This document shows positions 18,333 through 26,679 of a stretch of DNA of 35,832 nucleotides, piece by piece. The DNA is taken from positions 1-35,832 of the IMG/VR virus record IMGVR_UViG_3300032315_000814. One strand, given 5' to 3'. Below the pieces are notes generated by a model. It was not told the origin of the DNA. It saw only the letters and a program-made list of their open reading frames with translations, and ran no database searches. Position 1 is the first letter of the stretch, and every line of letters starts with the position of its first letter. Source of the stretch: a virus. Made by a program: the position numbers and the translations under genes.

Positions 18333-18623
18333 TCAGGTCAAGACGAGCGAGGGCGCAACGGAGAATTGCACCTCAACGGCCGAGCTGCTGGGGCTGCTCG
18401 CCGTAGCGCGGACGGCCCAATCGCCGGCCGCGTTAACCACGACATCGGTGTAGTATCTGCTGGACGTTTCCTGCACCGCCGCGCTGGCGGCGACCGTGCC
18501 GGCGGGATTTCGGACGCTAAACGCCACGCCAGTGACCGGCACGGCTGCGTCGGCCTCGTCGGCAAACGTCACGCGGATGCGGACAGTCTCGCCGGGGAAG
18601 AATTGCTGAAGGCGGCGGCTCAT
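18333..18623 (-). CDS. Small Ig-like structural protein (96 aa)
   Basis: A 96-residue all-beta protein. The pattern FFPGETVRIRVTFADEADAA, VTGVAFSVRNPAGT, RYYTDVVVNAAGDWAVRATA is that of an immunoglobulin-like or BppU-type fold found on phage tail fibres. The ATG at 18623 overlaps the stop of the repeat protein upstream (ATGA). It is probably a fibre decoration or tip component. Confidence 0.6.
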   Translation of the reverse strand: MSRRLQQFFPGETVRIRVTFADEADAAVPVTGVAFSVRNPAGTVAASAAVQETSSRYYTDVVVNAAGDWAVRATASSPSSSAVEVQFSVAPSLVLT

Positions 18624-20221
18624 TGGTAGCCCTCCACGATGGCTGTGGCTTTGATGCGCCGGCCGGCTGTGGCGGTGCCCTGCACGGCGGCGGCAATGGT
18701 GGCGGTGCCAGCGATGGCGCTGGACATCCCGGCGGATGCGGGAATGACGGCGCCAACATTGGCGTTGCCTGTAACAGCGCGTGCGGCGACGGCGGAGGCG
18801 CGGATTACTGGCGTCGGAACCGTCGCGTCGCAGACAATCGCGCCCGCGCCAGCCAGTAAGCCCGAAACGCTGAACCGCTGGCGCGCAATCGCGGCAACCG
18901 TGCCCACGCCTGCAAGGCTTGCGGCGGCGCCGGCATTGCGAGCGACAGCGGCTTGCAGCGTGCCGTTGGCCGAAAGCGTGGCGGCCGCGCTTTTCCGCCG
19001 GCCCGCTGTTGCGTCAATCGTGCCCGCACCGACTAGCGCGGCGCTGACAGGCAGGGCAACGCGCGCATCGGCGAAGATAGTGCCAGCGCCAGCAAGCGCG
19101 GCGGCTGCGGCCTTCTGGCCGCGTGCCGTGCCGGTCAGCGTGCCGGCGGCGGTCAGCACAGAGCCGGCGGCGATGGTCGCCGCGGCGCTGGCGGTAAGCG
19201 TGCCCGAGGCCGACAGCGCGGCAGATACCACGTCGGCGATGATTGCATCAGCCGTAAGCGTGCCGGCGCCTTGCAGCGTGGCAGCGACGGCCTTGCCAAG
19301 CCCTGCATCGGCCTGCGCGGTGCCTGCGCCGTCGAGCGCGGCGGTGATGGGCCGCGACCGGCCGGCGGCTGCGTTGACGGCACCAGCGCCAGCCAGCGCG
19401 GCTTCTGCCGGCCGGCTGCGCTGAGCGTCGGCGGCGATGACGCCTGCGCCGTCGAGCGCCGCAGCGGCGGGCCGCGTCCGCTCGGCCTGGCAAGCAACAA
19501 AGCCGGCGCCCTGCAGGGCGGCGGCCACAGGTAGAACAACGCCAGCCGCAGCGGCAACCGTTCCAGCGCCGTCGAGCGCCGCCGCGACTGGCAGCACCAA
19601 GCCGCCAGCAGCATCAACCGCACCAACGCCGTACAGCGCGGCAGTAACGCCACGCTGGCGGTTGGCCAGAGCCAGCGCCGCACCTTCGCCCGCAAGCGCC
19701 GCGCTGGCCGCTAGGGTAACGGCACAAGCGCCGCTCAGCGTGCCCGCGCCGGTCAGCGAGGCGGCGGCCGGCGCAATCAGCCCGGCAGCAGCGGCAAGCG
19801 CGCCCTCGGCCGCCAGCGCGGCGGCGACACCACGCTCGCGCTGAACAGATGCGGACGCCGCACCTTCGCCCGCAAGCGCCGCGCTGGCACTACGCTCGCG
19901 CGACGCATCACCCGCCGCAGTGCCGGCGCCAGCCAATGCCGCCGCGGCGGCAAGCGTCAGGTTGGCGTCAGCGGCAACAGCGCCCGCGCCGGTAAGGGCA
20001 GCGGCAATCGCCCGGCTGCGCCCAGCCTGGGCGGCAAGCGTACCGCTGGCGGCAAGCGTCGCCGAAGCCTCGCGCGGAATGCCGGCGATGGCGGCAAGCG
20101 TGCCGGCGCCGTTGAGCGCAGCCGTTACCTCGACCGCGTTGAAGTTCTCGGTGACACGGAAGCTGCCCGCTTCCGTCGTGCGGATTAACCCGCTTTCGGA
20201 TATACGGACGCCGTTGCTCAT
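18620..20221 (-). CDS. Tandem-repeat tail fibre-like protein (22 copies of a 20-residue repeat)
   Basis: A 533-residue protein with a strict architecture: a 33-residue non-repeated head (MSNGVRISESGLIRTTEAGS and on), then 22 repeats of exactly 20 residues (34-473), then a 60-residue tail. The consensus is A-A-L-x-G-A-G-T-x-x-A-x-A with seven looser residues to follow. Composition is mostly Ala and Gly with very few charges. Exact 20-residue periodicity with a conserved Leu and Gly-Ala-Gly turn suggests a stacked solenoid or fibrous rod. The location between the tail-adhesin block and the lysis genes suggests a fibre shaft or side-fibre. I do not recognise the family. Confidence 0.7.
   Translation of the reverse strand: MSNGVRISESGLIRTTEAGSFRVTENFNAVEVTAALNGAGTLAAIAGIPREASATLAASGTLAAQAGRSRAIAAALTGAGAVAADANLTLAAAAALAGAGTAAGDASRERSASAALAGEGAASASVQRERGVAAALAAEGALAAAAGLIAPAAASLTGAGTLSGACAVTLAASAALAGEGAALALANRQRGVTAALYGVGAVDAAGGLVLPVAAALDGAGTVAAAAGVVLPVAAALQGAGFVACQAERTRPAAAALDGAGVIAADAQRSRPAEAALAGAGAVNAAAGRSRPITAALDGAGTAQADAGLGKAVAATLQGAGTLTADAIIADVVSAALSASGTLTASAAATIAAGSVLTAAGTLTGTARGQKAAAAALAGAGTIFADARVALPVSAALVGAGTIDATAGRRKSAAATLSANGTLQAAVARNAGAAASLAGVGTVAAIARQRFSVSGLLAGAGAIVCDATVPTPVIRASAVAARAVTGNANVGAVIPASAGMSSAIAGTATIAAAVQGTATAGRRIKATAIVEGYQ
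18803..20122 (-). repeat. 22 tandem 60-bp coding repeats
   Basis: The DNA encoding the 22 repeats has a 60-base period with no insertion or deletion across 1,320 bases. The GGCGCTGGC-type block encoding Gly-Ala-Gly recurs at the same phase each time. Copies have diverged in the loose positions, so it is an old or selected array, not a fresh expansion. Such arrays can gain or lose whole units by recombination and so alter shaft length. Confidence 0.9.
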
Positions 20222-20232
20222 GGCGCGCTATC

Positions 20233-20664
20233 TCAAGCCGGCTGCGTCGGCCACTCGACCGACCAGGGGAAGCCCTCTTGGCCGGGTACGTCGCGCAGCT
20301 CCTGCCGGTACGCTGCCCAAGCGGCGGCATCCGCAGGGGCATCGGCAAACTGGGTCCAGTCGGAGGCGGCAAGCCGGGCGTTGCGGTCGGCGCGGAGCGA
20401 AGCCGACGCCTCAATAACCATAGGCAGTTCTCTCCACCGGGGAATTTGCTTGATGGCGCTTATCTCCGCAGGCGTCCGCTCGCGGGTATTCCACTTTTGG
20501 TAAACACGGCAACCTTCTGCCGCGTAATAATCACCGTCAACTGTTGAATGGATCGTTTCAGCCGGGCGATCTGAAAAGTAAACTGGATAGGCGCCGGTGG
20601 TCATTTTGGGCAAAAGCAATTGGTCGGGCTGTCCATCTAAAATCTTCATGTAAAAGTTGGACAT
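20233..20664 (-). CDS. Tail fibre assembly chaperone-like protein
   Basis: A 143-residue protein from ATG 20664, which shares one base with the stop of the adhesin gene (TGATG). The C-terminal segment (RNARLAASDWTQFADAPADA, WAAYRQELRDVPGQEGFPWS, then VEWPTQP) is the hallmark of the phage tail assembly chaperone group encoded next to fibre genes. The first half is beta-rich (VYFSDRPAETIHSTVDGDYY). It would help fold or attach the adhesin before it or the repeat protein after it. Confidence 0.8.
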   Translation of the reverse strand: MSNFYMKILDGQPDQLLLPKMTTGAYPVYFSDRPAETIHSTVDGDYYAAEGCRVYQKWNTRERTPAEISAIKQIPRWRELPMVIEASASLRADRNARLAASDWTQFADAPADAAAWAAYRQELRDVPGQEGFPWSVEWPTQPA

Positions 20665-21965
20665 CACAAGTTCCCCGTGTTGGTGGATGGAAATGCGCGA
20701 GTAATGCCGCTTGTTCCCGACCAAATAATTCTCACTGCGCCAGTGCCACCGGCTGAGTTTGTTCCGCCTGTGCCGCCGCCGTATTGTTTGAAGGAGCCAC
20801 CACTGCCAGCGCCAGAAGGCGCGATGCCGTTAGCTCCCTGCCCCAACAACCCGACGCCACCCCCATCTTTGTTCGAATGTGCTCCAAGGTTTGAGCCGCC
20901 CGCTCCACCGCCGCCGGACCCTGCTTGACTAGCTCCCGCGCCGCCGTTCCCGGAGTAGCCGCCAGCCCCGCCGCCACCCCCTTGGGCACCGTCACCGGGC
21001 CCCCGCCCTTCGCCGCCGAGGCCCCCACCATCGCCGGTAAAAGTGCCGCCCGCCGCAGGTCCACTGCCCGACCCCGACGCGCCGCCGCCGCCGCGCACGA
21101 TGCTGGAGCTAACAAAGGAGCTATCTCCACCAGGAACACTAGCACTGCTGCCCGCCGCACCCACAACCACCGTGTAACTTTGCCCCGGGACAACCGAGAT
21201 GTTGTTTTTCCACCCCAATCCGCCGCCGCCGCCGCCGGATTGATACCAACTACCAAACCCCCCGCCCCCGACGCAGACGGCAGAGACAGAGGTGACGTTA
21301 AGAGGGGCGACCCATGTATAGGTCCCAGGCGTGGTAAAAGCGATCTGGCTCGCCGGGGTTGTCACTGTATATCCACCAATTGTCCTTTGATTTATAACAA
21401 ATCCGCCAGCGCCATCTTGCGTTGGCGTATAAGTAATGGTCGCTAAAGATCGCGACACCGTGCCGTTTGTTGTTGTGATTGTATATGTGGTTTGAGAGTC
21501 AAAATTAGTGATGGTGAACGTGTATGCGGTGCCGGTGATCATCGTGCTTGACGTGGGGCCGTCGATGGTTACTGAGGTGGCATTTCCCCATACAGGCGGG
21601 GAGTTTATTCCCTGCGAAAGCAGAGCTTGGCCGCTGACGCCGTAGTTTGCCCCCTGAATACCAAGCTGACCCAAAGGGCCAATTCTAAAATCTTCCGAGC
21701 CGCCAGTGCCGAAGGCGATGGTGTCCGCAGCCGGGAAGAAGATGCCGGTGTTGCTATCGCCCGCAGCGGTCAGGCCGGGCGCGCTTACCGTGCCGGCCGC
21801 GACAGCCAGCGCGCCGGTCAGCGTGCCGCCGCTGGTCGGCAGCAGCCCGTCGCGGATCTGCGCCGCCGTCACCTTGCGCGACGTGCCGGCTTGGTTCGCT
21901 TCCAGCTCGTCGGTCCCAGCAGCCGAAGCCGCCGCCGGGAGGTCGGATATTTTGACGAAGGCCAC
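20664..21965 (-). CDS. Distal tail adhesin with polyglycine-rich receptor-binding domain
   Basis: A 433-residue tail fibre protein. Residues 1-60 carry the common attachment segment (MAFVKISDLPAAASAAGTDE and LPTSGGTLTGAL). A linker contains SNTGIFFPAADTIAFGTGGS. Residues about 205-420 form a glycine-rich domain with a TPGTYTWVAPLNVTSVSAV entry and long runs of Gly interrupted by single residues. It closes with GTGAVRIIW and a short tail. This layout matches adhesins whose polyglycine-II sandwich presents variable loops that bind the host receptor. It is the likely host-range determinant. Confidence 0.85.
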   Translation of the reverse strand: MAFVKISDLPAAASAAGTDELEANQAGTSRKVTAAQIRDGLLPTSGGTLTGALAVAAGTVSAPGLTAAGDSNTGIFFPAADTIAFGTGGSEDFRIGPLGQLGIQGANYGVSGQALLSQGINSPPVWGNATSVTIDGPTSSTMITGTAYTFTITNFDSQTTYTITTTNGTVSRSLATITYTPTQDGAGGFVINQRTIGGYTVTTPASQIAFTTPGTYTWVAPLNVTSVSAVCVGGGGFGSWYQSGGGGGGLGWKNNISVVPGQSYTVVVGAAGSSASVPGGDSSFVSSSIVRGGGGASGSGSGPAAGGTFTGDGGGLGGEGRGPGDGAQGGGGGAGGYSGNGGAGASQAGSGGGGAGGSNLGAHSNKDGGGVGLLGQGANGIAPSGAGSGGSFKQYGGGTGGTNSAGGTGAVRIIWSGTSGITRAFPSTNTGNL

Positions 21966-21983: not shown

Positions 21984-22364
21984 TTAGGCGATGGTCAGCG
22001 AAAGCGCGCTGGCGGCGATGGTCAGGCTGTCGCCGGTGTCCACCGTGCGCGCGGTGGTGAGGGCGCCGGCCCACAGGCAATTGCCGCCCGTCACCGCATC
22101 AAACACGGCCACCGACGCCATCGAGCCCCAGGACGCAGACGCCGGGCCGAAGACCAGCAGCGCGCTATTCGTCGCCGCGTCATTCGTCACGGTGAAGCTG
22201 ACAACCTGGCGCGCGTAGCCATTACCGCTCGGCTCGCCGGTCAGGCCGGTGTCGGTGTGGCCCGTGCCGGCGCCGACATACCACGCGGTCGGGCGCGACA
22301 CGGCGCCGGCGGTGAGCTGCCAGACAAGAAGCTGGTTCTCGCCGAAGTTGGTGATGTTGCTCAT
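21984..22364 (-). CDS. Tail fibre-associated structural protein, Gp80-like
   Basis: A 126-residue beta-rich protein: SNITNFGENQLLVWQLTAG, then PTAWYVGAGTGHTDTGLTGE, PSGNGYARQVVSFTV. The LTGEPSGNGYARQ motif is characteristic of a group of small structural proteins encoded with phage tail fibres. It probably forms part of the fibre base. It lies in an unbroken run of tail-tip genes on the minus strand. Confidence 0.65.
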   Translation of the reverse strand: MSNITNFGENQLLVWQLTAGAVSRPTAWYVGAGTGHTDTGLTGEPSGNGYARQVVSFTVTNDAATNSALLVFGPASASWGSMASVAVFDAVTGGNCLWAGALTTARTVDTGDSLTIAASALSLTIA

Positions 22365-23204: not shown

Positions 23205-26200
23205 TCACCGGATGCGGCTGAACGCAATTATGGAAAACGAAGACGCCTGGATTGAGCCGTCTTGCCCCCACCAATATAAAATAAAGTCATTATTCCCGGC
23301 GGTAAACGTGCGGGCCAAGATAAAGGTAGGCGTGTCGTTGATGGCGCCCATTTGACGCTCAAGAATAGTGCTGCCCCCCGCAGTCTGGATAAGCACTCGG
23401 GTAACGGTGGCGCCGCCTGAGTACCCCTGCTGCAATGACACCATCAATATGCCTTGCCGGTCTTGTGGCACCGTAAAGCCAAGGCCCTGGATGGCTTGAT
23501 AATTGCCCGAACCCGACGCTGTATTGGGGTTAAACGCGGAGGCAAAGGTCGTGACCGCATCGCCCTGCACTCGCAGCGTGTCCACCGTCGCAACGCCAAG
23601 CTGCGCGGACTGCGTGATTAGGGTTTCGGACGCGAGGTTCGTCGCGCGGATGGCGCCGGCTGCGATCTCGGTCGAGCTGATAGCAGCGGCGGCGATCTTG
23701 CCGGCGGTTATGGCGTTGGCGGTGATCTTGTCGGACGTGATGGCGTTGGCGGCTATCTTGCTCGCCTCAACCGCGCCCGCCGCAATTTTCTCAGCCGTGA
23801 TGGCGCTGCCAGCTATTTTTTCGGCAACAACCGCGCCCGCCGCGATGTTGGCGGCCAGCACCGACGCCGCCTGCAGCTTCGGCGTGGATATGGCACTGTC
23901 GCTGATCTGCGTCGTGGTGATTTGGCCAGTCAGCTTTGCCGCGTTAATTGCGGCGAGCTGCGCGTCTGTTAGCTGCCCGGTGATATCCACCGCCGGCACC
24001 GCTGCCGTCCAGGCCGACCCGGTCCAGCGATACAGCTTGTCGTCGGTGGTCAGGAACACCATCCGGCCTTCAAAATTGCCGGTGCTGGGCAGGCTGCTGA
24101 CAATCTCGACCGGCGTGATGCCGGCGGCGAACTTTGCGGTGTTGACGATACCGTCCTGGATGTCATTTGCGACCAGCAGCGAGGTGGTCGCAGTGACCGG
24201 GCCAACATAGGCCGACAGGTTGCCGCTCAGGTCGCGCGACCGCACCCAGTAGTGGCGCGTCACGTTCGGATTTAGTCCCGTCCGCACAAAGCCGGTGCCG
24301 CGCGTCTCGCCGACAAAGTAGCGGCCCGCGGTGCTGGTGCTGGTATTTTCCCAGACTTCTACCGCCGCCAAGTCGGACGCCGTGGGCAGCGTCCAGGCTA
24401 CGCTGACGCCGCGCGTAATGCCGGCGGCGGTCAAGTTGGTCGGCGCGTCAGGCGCCGTGCTGTCGGCGGCGCCCGTGCCATTGATCGTGGTGGACCAAGC
24501 GCCGCGCGCGATGCCGGTGACGCCGCGCACCCGGACTTGGTAGGCTGTGCCGATCAGCACTGGCGCGATGACGAAGCGGTTGGTGCCGACCGGCACCTCG
24601 GCCGAGTTCCAGTCCGCCGCGCCAGACACGCGCCATTGCACCTCGTGGGCAATCAGGAACGCGAAGGCCGAGGCGGTCCATGTCACCAGCAGCGCAGGCG
24701 CGACAGATCCATCCGCCTGCAACGCCGTGCTGGCGGCGACCGCAAGGTTAGTCGGCGCAGGGATCGCAAGCGGGTCCACCAGATTGGTGTCAGGCGCCAG
24801 CGGCAAGGGCTGGGCGTCGCCGAACTGCCAAGCGTAGCTGTTGGCGCTCTCCTCGCGCAGCGTCAGGTTGATGATGCCGCTTTCGGCGTCGAAGGTCCAT
24901 GCGACGATGCGGAAGGGCTTATTCGTCCACCCGAAGTCGGCCAGCGTGACGTTCAACGTCTGCCAAACGCAATACCGCAGGCCGGCGTATTTCACCGGCA
25001 CGCGCACCGTCAGCGCCTCGCGCGCACGGCGCAGGGTCAGCTTGGCGAGCCGCTGCGCGCGCGTTTCGTCGGTCGTAAACGGCCACTCAACATCCCGCGT
25101 GATCGTCTCGCCGTCAGCCGACACGATGGCCGCCTCGGAATAGGCGGGGAACTCGGACGCCTGCCAGTTGCGGCTTGGGTTGATGAACGTACCGCGCACC
25201 GTATTGAACAGCTCGCGCCGCGGCGGCTTAGTCACCAACTCGACCGGGCCGGCGAGGTCGCTGGCCGTCAGCGTGTCGGTCGGCGCGTCATAGGCGCCGG
25301 CGTATAGGCGATATCGGCCTTGAACATAGACCAGCGTGCCGGCGCAGCTCGTCAGCATATCGTCGATGATATCGAGCGGCGTGGCGTCAAGGCTAAACGC
25401 GCCGTCGAGCGTATATCGCCGCTGCGTGGTGCCGCCCGCGGCGATGGTCACGAATTCATCGCAGACGTTGGCGGCAGCCGTGAAAGATGCCGTGTCGATT
25501 TCGTCGGCGCTGCACGCGAGGCCATCCGCGCTCGTCAGATAGTGCAGGATGCAGAGCGCAGGGTTGTTGCTGTAGCCGGTGACGCCAGTGCGAGGGTCCA
25601 CGATCTGGTTGTGGCCGCGCATCTCGACCGACAGAGCGCCGGGGCCGTTGGCAAATACGTCGCGGTCGTATTCCAGCCGGACGTACATATACGCAGTTTC
25701 CCGCAGCACATGGTCGGCGGTCCATTCGCCGTTCGTGTCCGCGATAAGGTCGGCGTTGGCCGTTGTTTGACCGCCAGCGGCAAAGAAAGTCCGCAGCCGG
25801 TTGGCGTACTTGCCCGTGGTGTGCGCGCCGTTGACCCACGCAATTCGCTCGTCGTTAATCCAAAGCGCGAGCGGCCCATCTACGCGATGGCCAGCGACCG
25901 GAACGACGAGGTGCAGGAACTGTTTTGCGTCGCCGCTGCTGGACGCATAGACAATCGGGCCAGAGACGCGGGCGGTCCCATACACCACCTGGCGCGGGGC
26001 CACGCTGCTGCGGATGGTCTGCTTGCGGTCCTGGGCGCGGCTGCTGCTGGACGACTTGGTGCGATTAAGGCCAAAGGCCGCGCTGAGGCCGTAGCCAATG
26101 CCGGCAGCGACGACGCCACCCACCAGCCCGGCAGCAATAGTCGCTAAGCTGGCGAAGCCAAACAATGTTGGGCCGATAATAGCTGCGGCTGCCGCCGAGG

Positions 26201-26249
26201 CGCCATAGCCGGCGGCCGCCACAGCTATAGCGACAATGATTTGCGGCAT
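23205..26249 (-). CDS. Tail-tip host-specificity protein (gpJ-like)
   Basis: A 1014-residue protein from ATG 26249, the central tail-tip fibre. It opens with a long Ala/Gly-rich hydrophobic stretch (IIVAIAVAAAGYGASAAAAA), as is common in this family. The phage tail-tip core follows (SVAPRQVVYGTARVSGPIVY, INDERIAWV, LRRAREALTVRVPVKYAGLR), then two fibronectin type III domains (PTNLAVAAS region and APDAPTNLTAAG region). A decapeptide repeat region encoded at about 23640-23870 follows (units like GSAITAEKIA, at least seven). A beta-rich C-terminal domain probably contacts the receptor. The preceding three genes are the usual partners at the tail tip. Confidence 0.9.
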   Translation of the reverse strand: MPQIIVAIAVAAAGYGASAAAAAIIGPTLFGFASLATIAAGLVGGVVAAGIGYGLSAAFGLNRTKSSSSSRAQDRKQTIRSSVAPRQVVYGTARVSGPIVYASSSGDAKQFLHLVVPVAGHRVDGPLALWINDERIAWVNGAHTTGKYANRLRTFFAAGGQTTANADLIADTNGEWTADHVLRETAYMYVRLEYDRDVFANGPGALSVEMRGHNQIVDPRTGVTGYSNNPALCILHYLTSADGLACSADEIDTASFTAAANVCDEFVTIAAGGTTQRRYTLDGAFSLDATPLDIIDDMLTSCAGTLVYVQGRYRLYAGAYDAPTDTLTASDLAGPVELVTKPPRRELFNTVRGTFINPSRNWQASEFPAYSEAAIVSADGETITRDVEWPFTTDETRAQRLAKLTLRRAREALTVRVPVKYAGLRYCVWQTLNVTLADFGWTNKPFRIVAWTFDAESGIINLTLREESANSYAWQFGDAQPLPLAPDTNLVDPLAIPAPTNLAVAASTALQADGSVAPALLVTWTASAFAFLIAHEVQWRVSGAADWNSAEVPVGTNRFVIAPVLIGTAYQVRVRGVTGIARGAWSTTINGTGAADSTAPDAPTNLTAAGITRGVSVAWTLPTASDLAAVEVWENTSTSTAGRYFVGETRGTGFVRTGLNPNVTRHYWVRSRDLSGNLSAYVGPVTATTSLLVANDIQDGIVNTAKFAAGITPVEIVSSLPSTGNFEGRMVFLTTDDKLYRWTGSAWTAAVPAVDITGQLTDAQLAAINAAKLTGQITTTQISDSAISTPKLQAASVLAANIAAGAVVAEKIAGSAITAEKIAAGAVEASKIAANAITSDKITANAITAGKIAAAAISSTEIAAGAIRATNLASETLITQSAQLGVATVDTLRVQGDAVTTFASAFNPNTASGSGNYQAIQGLGFTVPQDRQGILMVSLQQGYSGGATVTRVLIQTAGGSTILERQMGAINDTPTFILARTFTAGNNDFILYWWGQDGSIQASSFSIIAFSRIR

Positions 26250-26250
26250 C

Positions 26251-26679
26251 TCAGACCACCCACGCACGCAGGACGCGCGACGCCGGCAGGAAGTGCAGCC
26301 GGTCCACGCCGGGCACGGCCACCGTGCCGCCCAGATGCACGCCGCACATGCGCTGATTGCCGACCGCCACGAACACCATGTCCCCCCGCTGCGCGAAGGC
26401 TGGTTCGCACTCTGCCGCGCCCCAGGCCGCCATTGTCGCGGCTACCCACACCTCTAGGCCGGCCGGGCCAATGATGGCTTCGGCCTCTTCCTCGGTGCTG
26501 TATGCGCCGCGGACAGCCGCCGCCGGGTCTTCGCCGGTCAACTCAAGCGCGGCGTCAGCGGCGAGCGTGAAGCAATCCTGCAAGCCCCAGGCGAAGCCCT
26601 CATCGCGGCGCGCGTCGATAAAAGCCGCAAGCCGCTCGGCCCAGTCAGCAGCGCGGGCGCGCGTTGGTTCCGGGCGCAT
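26251..26679 (-). CDS. DUF6950-like tail assembly peptidase (NlpC/P60-type)
   Basis: A 142-residue protein with the catalytic cysteine context WGLQDCFTLAADAALELTG (Cys36) and a histidine in GVHLGGTVAVPG; it ends with FLPASRVLRAWVV. This matches DUF6950, a circularly reduced NlpC/P60-like group always found beside the tail-tip gene, filling the place of lambda gpK. It may cut peptidoglycan during entry or process tail-tip proteins. It shares one base with the upstream gene (TGATG) and lies two bases before the gpJ-like start. Confidence 0.8.
   Translation of the reverse strand: MRPEPTRARAADWAERLAAFIDARRDEGFAWGLQDCFTLAADAALELTGEDPAAAVRGAYSTEEEAEAIIGPAGLEVWVAATMAAWGAAECEPAFAQRGDMVFVAVGNQRMCGVHLGGTVAVPGVDRLHFLPASRVLRAWVV

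Follow-up and report, generated by a model that had tools for sequence, protein, structure and literature searches.

A 20-residue repeat array encoded beside a Gp80-family gene: a probable length-setting fiber component of a siphophage

Fiber I of the podophage GP4 reportedly consists of five gp80 dimers joined by an elongated rope protein, and the structure 8jou contains 10 gp80 chains. Another bead-chain fiber, the neck fiber of the Anabaena myophage A-1(L), is long and flexible and made of repeated beads, and no thread protein is described for it (PMC10966104). A search of the available literature found no description of the repeat or rope protein considered in this work. Here, we analyzed a DNA window of 35,832 nucleotides (positions 1 to 35,832 of the IMG/VR virus record IMGVR_UViG_3300032315_000814), in which one gene encodes a long array of 20-residue units. 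Since such array threads, varied in length, were found beside a Gp80-like gene in nearly all phages examined, the protein very probably serves as the string or shaft that sets the length of a fiber of the virus particle.

The window virus is a siphophage, encoding a portal, a large terminase, an integrase, a head-tail adaptor, a tape measure, a distal tail protein, and a gpJ-type fiber. The group of genes downstream of gpJ is a fiber module, in which a small unknown gene is followed by the Gp80-family gene, the glycine-rich fiber protein, the fiber assembly chaperone, the array gene, the small Ig-like gene, and the holin (Table 1). Two other genes separate the Gp80-like gene from the array gene. 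The family labels of the Gp80-like gene differ between libraries, as PHROGs name it a 'head protein' and Pfam a fiber protein; the 8jou match favors the fiber, with the result that the PHROG label could misdirect the annotation of many phages. In three loci (L292, L293, and L294), a strongly 24-residue-periodic protein (z 21-24), with its open reading frame approximately 529 bases after gp80, was observed between gp80 and the array gene, where it occupies the slot of the window's glycine-rich fiber.

Table 1. Positions of the array gene, its parts, and the surrounding fiber module in the window.
Feature	Position	Strand	Remarks
gpJ-type central tail fiber, start of distal fiber module	23205..26267	(-)	
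Gp80-family virion protein, proposed array partner	21984..22364	(-)	PF23140 6e-28; phrog_240 6e-15; 8jou_a 3.8e-5
Glycine-rich fiber protein (Gly_rich_2)	20664..21965	(-)	Gly_rich_2 also fused to array in prophiFSQJ01-1 gp72
Tail fiber assembly chaperone (Phage_tail_APC)	20233..20724	(-)	2.4e-22
Array gene, open reading frame	20221..18620	(-)	533 aa
Head, residues 1-33 (MSNGVRISESGLIRTTEAGSFRVTENFNAVEVT)	20123..20221	(-)	'RI/RTTE/RVTE' motif, common to relatives
22 x 20-residue array, residues 34-473	18803..20122	(-)	lag 20; Leu3 and Gly7 invariant
Tail, residues 474-533 and stop	18620..18802	(-)	terminates in VEGYQ; end conserved among orthologs
Small Ig-like protein	18333..18623	(-)	4-base overlap with array gene; relative in Synechococcus phage MinM1

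An earlier note on this DNA had described the protein as 22 repeats of exactly 20 residues with no indel, and this was borne out. The array consists of 22 ungapped units, each of exactly 20 residues, and the self-identity of the protein was 0.394 at lag 20, 0.341 at lag 40, and 0.385 at lag 60, while the highest identity reached anywhere in 2000 shuffles (lags 5-60) was 0.231. Leucine at position 3 and glycine at position 7 were present in all units (22/22 each), alanine at position 1 in 20/22, and alanine at position 13 in 18/22. The array was also correctly held to be unlike pentapeptide repeats, as a test for a period-5 A(D/N)LXX pattern was negative, with lags 5 and 15 at background and only multiples of lag 20 rising. 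With regard to the codon positions, inter-unit identity was 0.59, 0.57, and 0.40 at the first, second, and third position, respectively; adjacent pairs of units were no closer than distant pairs, and identity stayed nearly flat with inter-unit distance. This pattern argues that the repeat is maintained at the protein level and does not stem from recent DNA duplication. The conserved positions are mostly odd (1, 3, 5, 7, 9, 11, 13, and 19), and this beta-type alternation in the sequence, which the earlier note does not mention, is suggestive of beta strands joined by a Gly5-x-Gly7 turn. Antisense to the array, an open frame of 261 residues was observed (18639-19424, + strand), whose repeat-profile score derives from composition only.

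The whole array protein gave no sequence match in Pfam, PHROG, or PDB, and tblastn against phages returned no match either at 1e-5 or at an E of 10, which we attribute to low-complexity masking. Such filtering seems to hide array proteins, so that they are still called 'hypothetical'. Relatives were sought in the viral collection by a DNA pattern of three units at a 60-base period, and many loci among the pattern matches listed carry long arrays of the 20-residue class. At least dozens of phage contigs carry this class, as do named phages, among them the Methylophilales phages MEP401, MEP402, and Venkman, the Mycobacterium prophage prophiFSQJ01-1, and the Microbacterium phage Magritte. The array protein of prophiFSQJ01-1 is annotated as 'minor tail protein' and MEP401 gp59 as 'tail protein', the latter having head and units in common with the window protein (42% over residues 1-100, E 2e-14). 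Profile searches (HMM) with bias correction off gave inflated E-values, antisense array frames reaching approximately 1e-8, and spacing and lag tests were therefore used in their place. Pattern matches at three loci of cellular genomes (L193, L196, and L252) were discarded as simple repeats, either Ala/Phe or Gly-rich. Of the novelty claimed for the repeat, one part has to be given up, as it is already widespread in phages, yet it carries no family name in any of the libraries searched.

The genome positions of the arrays vary, from near the capsid genes in Magritte to among the minor tail genes in prophiFSQJ01-1, and a single role for all arrays is thus not assured. Several individual members are worth recording. 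A very long array of approximately 1,100 residues (L236, 2991-6980), with a Gp80-like gene lying upstream of it, is present in the genome of Actinomycetospora endophytica and probably belongs to a prophage. In Magritte gp27 (L253, 4351-6816), the array is fused to a glycerophosphodiester phosphodiesterase domain and is encoded among capsid and connector genes. CRP-4 gp54 (L276, 2447-3208) repeats the head motif 'RITESGD' at an 8-residue period, carries it again near the C-terminus, and has a W-K-R-A-Y end.

The neighborhood of the arrays was dominated by one family. A PHROG scan of 111 array-flanking proteins found phrog_240 in 15 and the next family in 3. A Gp80 profile was then built from the window gene and run against all loci, and a Gp80-like gene was found at 62 of the 65 array loci whose upstream flank measured 400 bp or more and at all 31 flanked by 3 kb or more upstream and 1 kb or more downstream. 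Among these 62 positive loci, the gene lies upstream on the same strand in 56 (28 of them within 120 bases), downstream in 5, and on the opposite strand in 1. Array-less control loci carried a Gp80-like gene in 0/37 viral and 0/114 genome cases, counts that leave out two positives, both of them duplicates of the twin contig of the window. As the array loci were mostly picked by their repeat pattern and not by Gp80, this linkage is not built into the selection.

The search was also run in reverse, with two Gp80-like proteins as the start and 67 viral loci, whose neighboring open reading frames were screened at lags 8-40 (z of at least 4.5). The strongest period in a neighboring frame was 20 at 25 loci and 40 at one, that is at 26 of the 67 (18 clusters at 70% identity), and every other lag was found in at most 4 loci; two of the 26 (L291 and L340) are previously known contigs. 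In seven closely related loci and in L334, the periodic gene lies upstream of gp80. Around 60% of the Gp80-started loci had no lag-20 neighbor within the available flank, which indicates that Gp80-like genes can occur without an array, and gp071 of CcrMagneto, which adjoins a Gp80-like gene, showed no 20-residue period. Two variants were observed along the way. In L309-L315, the 20-periodic frame is upstream, not downstream, of the Gp80-like gene, and its N-terminal part has a different, longer repeat (GGGNSSDAICMGG). A period of 21 residues (z 7-13) characterizes proteins encoded immediately upstream of Gp80-like genes in L305, L306, and L308.

Close relatives of the window, found via the Gp80-like gene, keep the head in most cases and the end in all, and the head motif is common to the window, L292, L295, L297, and L298. 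The number of units is 12 in L292, 15 in L298, 18 in L297, 22 in both L295 and the window, and 24 in L304, the head of which is different. Gaps in the alignment of the window protein with that of L292 measured 20, 40, 19, 80, 40, and 20 residues, and in the MEP401 gp59 family, one member is without exactly 20 and 40 alignment columns. The comparison of copy number among relatives, as proposed in the earlier note, hence revealed whole-unit changes between conserved ends, as expected for a length-setting shaft. Frame disruption, which would have spoken against the proposal, was seen in none of the relatives, though unit spacings of 19, 21, or 22 occasionally occur. Neighbor genes, whole-unit changes, and the Gp80 linkage support the idea of a fiber-like component whose length follows copy number.

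The best single mechanism for these data is an elongated virion fiber thread that works with Gp80-like subunits and has its length given by the number of units, and by analogy with GP4 we consider the chances of this reading to be even. The array protein would belong to the tail-tip or fiber module as an elongated virion fiber component, with the head joining it to the particle or to a fiber partner, the array providing a thread or shaft whose units are all equal and hold two short beta strands each, and the tail capping the thread. Thread length would be set by unit number and altered by whole units between relatives, and the array would act together with the Gp80-like protein encoded upstream. 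If GP4 fiber I is taken as the analog, the array would most likely be the string and the Gp80-like subunits would be spaced along it. Periodicity, homologs, whole-unit changes, and the near-constant Gp80 linkage are demonstrated; we infer the physical binding of array and Gp80, the position in the virion, and the ratio of approximately one unit per Gp80 subunit. The most specific form of the proposal, that arrays thread Gp80-like beads at approximately one 20-residue unit per subunit and that copy number is read out as bead number and fiber length, is put forward tentatively.

The Bcep22-like phages connect the arrays to GP4. BcepMigl gp56 matches 8jou_a (2.5e-59) and BcepIL02 gp54 matches GP4 gp81 (8jov, 2e-55), so that GP4 and the Bcep22-like phages appear to have corresponding gene orders. 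In BcepIL02, DC1, CSP3, JC1, and BcepMigl, the gene immediately following gp80 gave a significant lag-20 signal in 5/5 cases, and 20 was the top lag in 4/5; when these proteins were aligned, BcepMigl was without one block of exactly 20 columns. Counted by eye, BcepIL02 gp56 has 11 A-x-(M/L)-x-L motifs at a spacing of 20-23, a number near that of the gp80 chains in 8jou (10), which would suggest around one unit per gp80 subunit. A PDB search found no chain matching the Bcep22-like candidate rope. The evidence from virions is mixed. BcepIL02 gp56 and BcepMigl gp57 are both labeled as virion-associated in their records. In the virion proteome of JC1, gp52, gp53, and gp55 were detected, and the candidate rope gp54 is not listed (PMC9144972), which speaks against the thread reading. 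The Gp80-like phiM5_17 is noted as detected in the virion; phiM5_18 is without such a note.

The main rival is a free-standing beta-solenoid rod, in which the units stack as coils into a rigid shaft and the Gp80 linkage reflects a shared fiber module only. With 20 residues, two strands, and approximately 0.48 nm per coil, 22 units might then extend to around 10 nm, and we regard both the rod and this geometry as possible but doubtful. AlphaFold2, supplied with residues 1-233 and 15 array sequences, placed two strands in each unit at positions 19-3 and 7-13 (pLDDT 65, pTM 0.58), and a similar layout was obtained for a divergent array family (pLDDT 53). The monomer prediction called for in the earlier note was therefore consistent in giving every unit two strands, though its confidence was moderate to low. 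A PDB fold search returned nothing below 0.001, its weak matches being mostly beta-solenoids or similar, and a BFVD fold search returned one uncharacterized phage protein (1.4e-4). The 'new solenoid' suggested earlier finds weak support in a predicted regular two-strand unit of beta-solenoid type, which a significant PDB fold match does not accompany. At the profile level, the only PDB structures matched by the array were GIN/DUF2807 solenoids (3jx8, 1e-5), and PF10988 matched 9/73 array proteins, mostly below the cut-off, with no match for the window protein itself. However, a control profile with reversed units matched the GIN structures equally well, and a permuted one matched GIN and pentapeptide proteins. 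The GIN matches hence stem from periodicity and composition, and a homology of the array to GIN/DUF2807 was withdrawn. The models favor a beta-rich unit and are compatible with either a stacked rod or a thread folding on Gp80, but the rod leaves the near-constant presence of a Gp80-like gene unexplained.

An intertwined homotrimer, such as a triple beta-spiral with short strands and turns in each chain as in adenovirus fiber shafts, is unlikely. Phage fibers are commonly trimeric, and small and hydrophobic residues alternate in the array with a Gly-x-Gly turn, but its unit comprises 20 residues against approximately 15 in the adenovirus type. A disordered low-complexity spacer, or a composition artifact of GC-rich DNA without defined structure, would agree with the high Ala/Gly content and the limited model confidence, but is highly improbable given that the exact 20-residue register runs across 22 units while third codon positions vary freely, and is retained in less alanine-rich relatives (MEP401 and the Bcep22-like proteins).

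If the array is indeed a thread for Gp80-like beads, this reading would provide a sequence identity for the GP4-type rope and a function for a large unnamed class of phage proteins. The 20-residue register and a linked Gp80-like gene together offer a recognition rule for array proteins, a class that probably supplies the partner still lacking for a fiber subunit of known structure. Moreover, the natural length series of arrays is suited to testing how fiber length is set by repeat number.

For comparison with known systems, the GIN/DUF2807 proteins (PF10988; 3jx8, 3lyc, 3pet) resemble the array in their coils of approximately 20 residues, the G-x-G turn, and a weak profile and fold similarity, but this likeness is non-specific in the controls and the window protein has no Pfam match. 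The neck fiber of A-1(L) shares with a Gp80-type fiber the long, flexible build of repeated beads; homology was rejected, as gp80-gp82 of A-1(L) show no sequence relationship with the Gp80 family treated here. GP4 is a podophage, whereas the window comes from a siphophage whose array is Ala-rich and exact, and the likeness to the rope comes from synteny; common to both (8jou, 8jov) are a Gp80-family gene upstream in the same fiber module and, in the GP4-like Bcep22 phages, a 20-periodic protein encoded directly after gp80. In the mycobacteriophage minor tail protein prophiFSQJ01-1 gp72, a 20-residue array likewise stands beside a glycine-rich domain, but array and Gly_rich_2 form one chain there and two genes in the window. 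Finally, MEP401 gp59 and its relatives differ by having approximately 10 less Ala-rich units and a C-terminal 'GVWK' tip, where the window tail is without GVWK and has VEGYQ, but they share with the window the same head motif, the 20-residue units, and a Gp80-like gene, which in their case lies immediately upstream.
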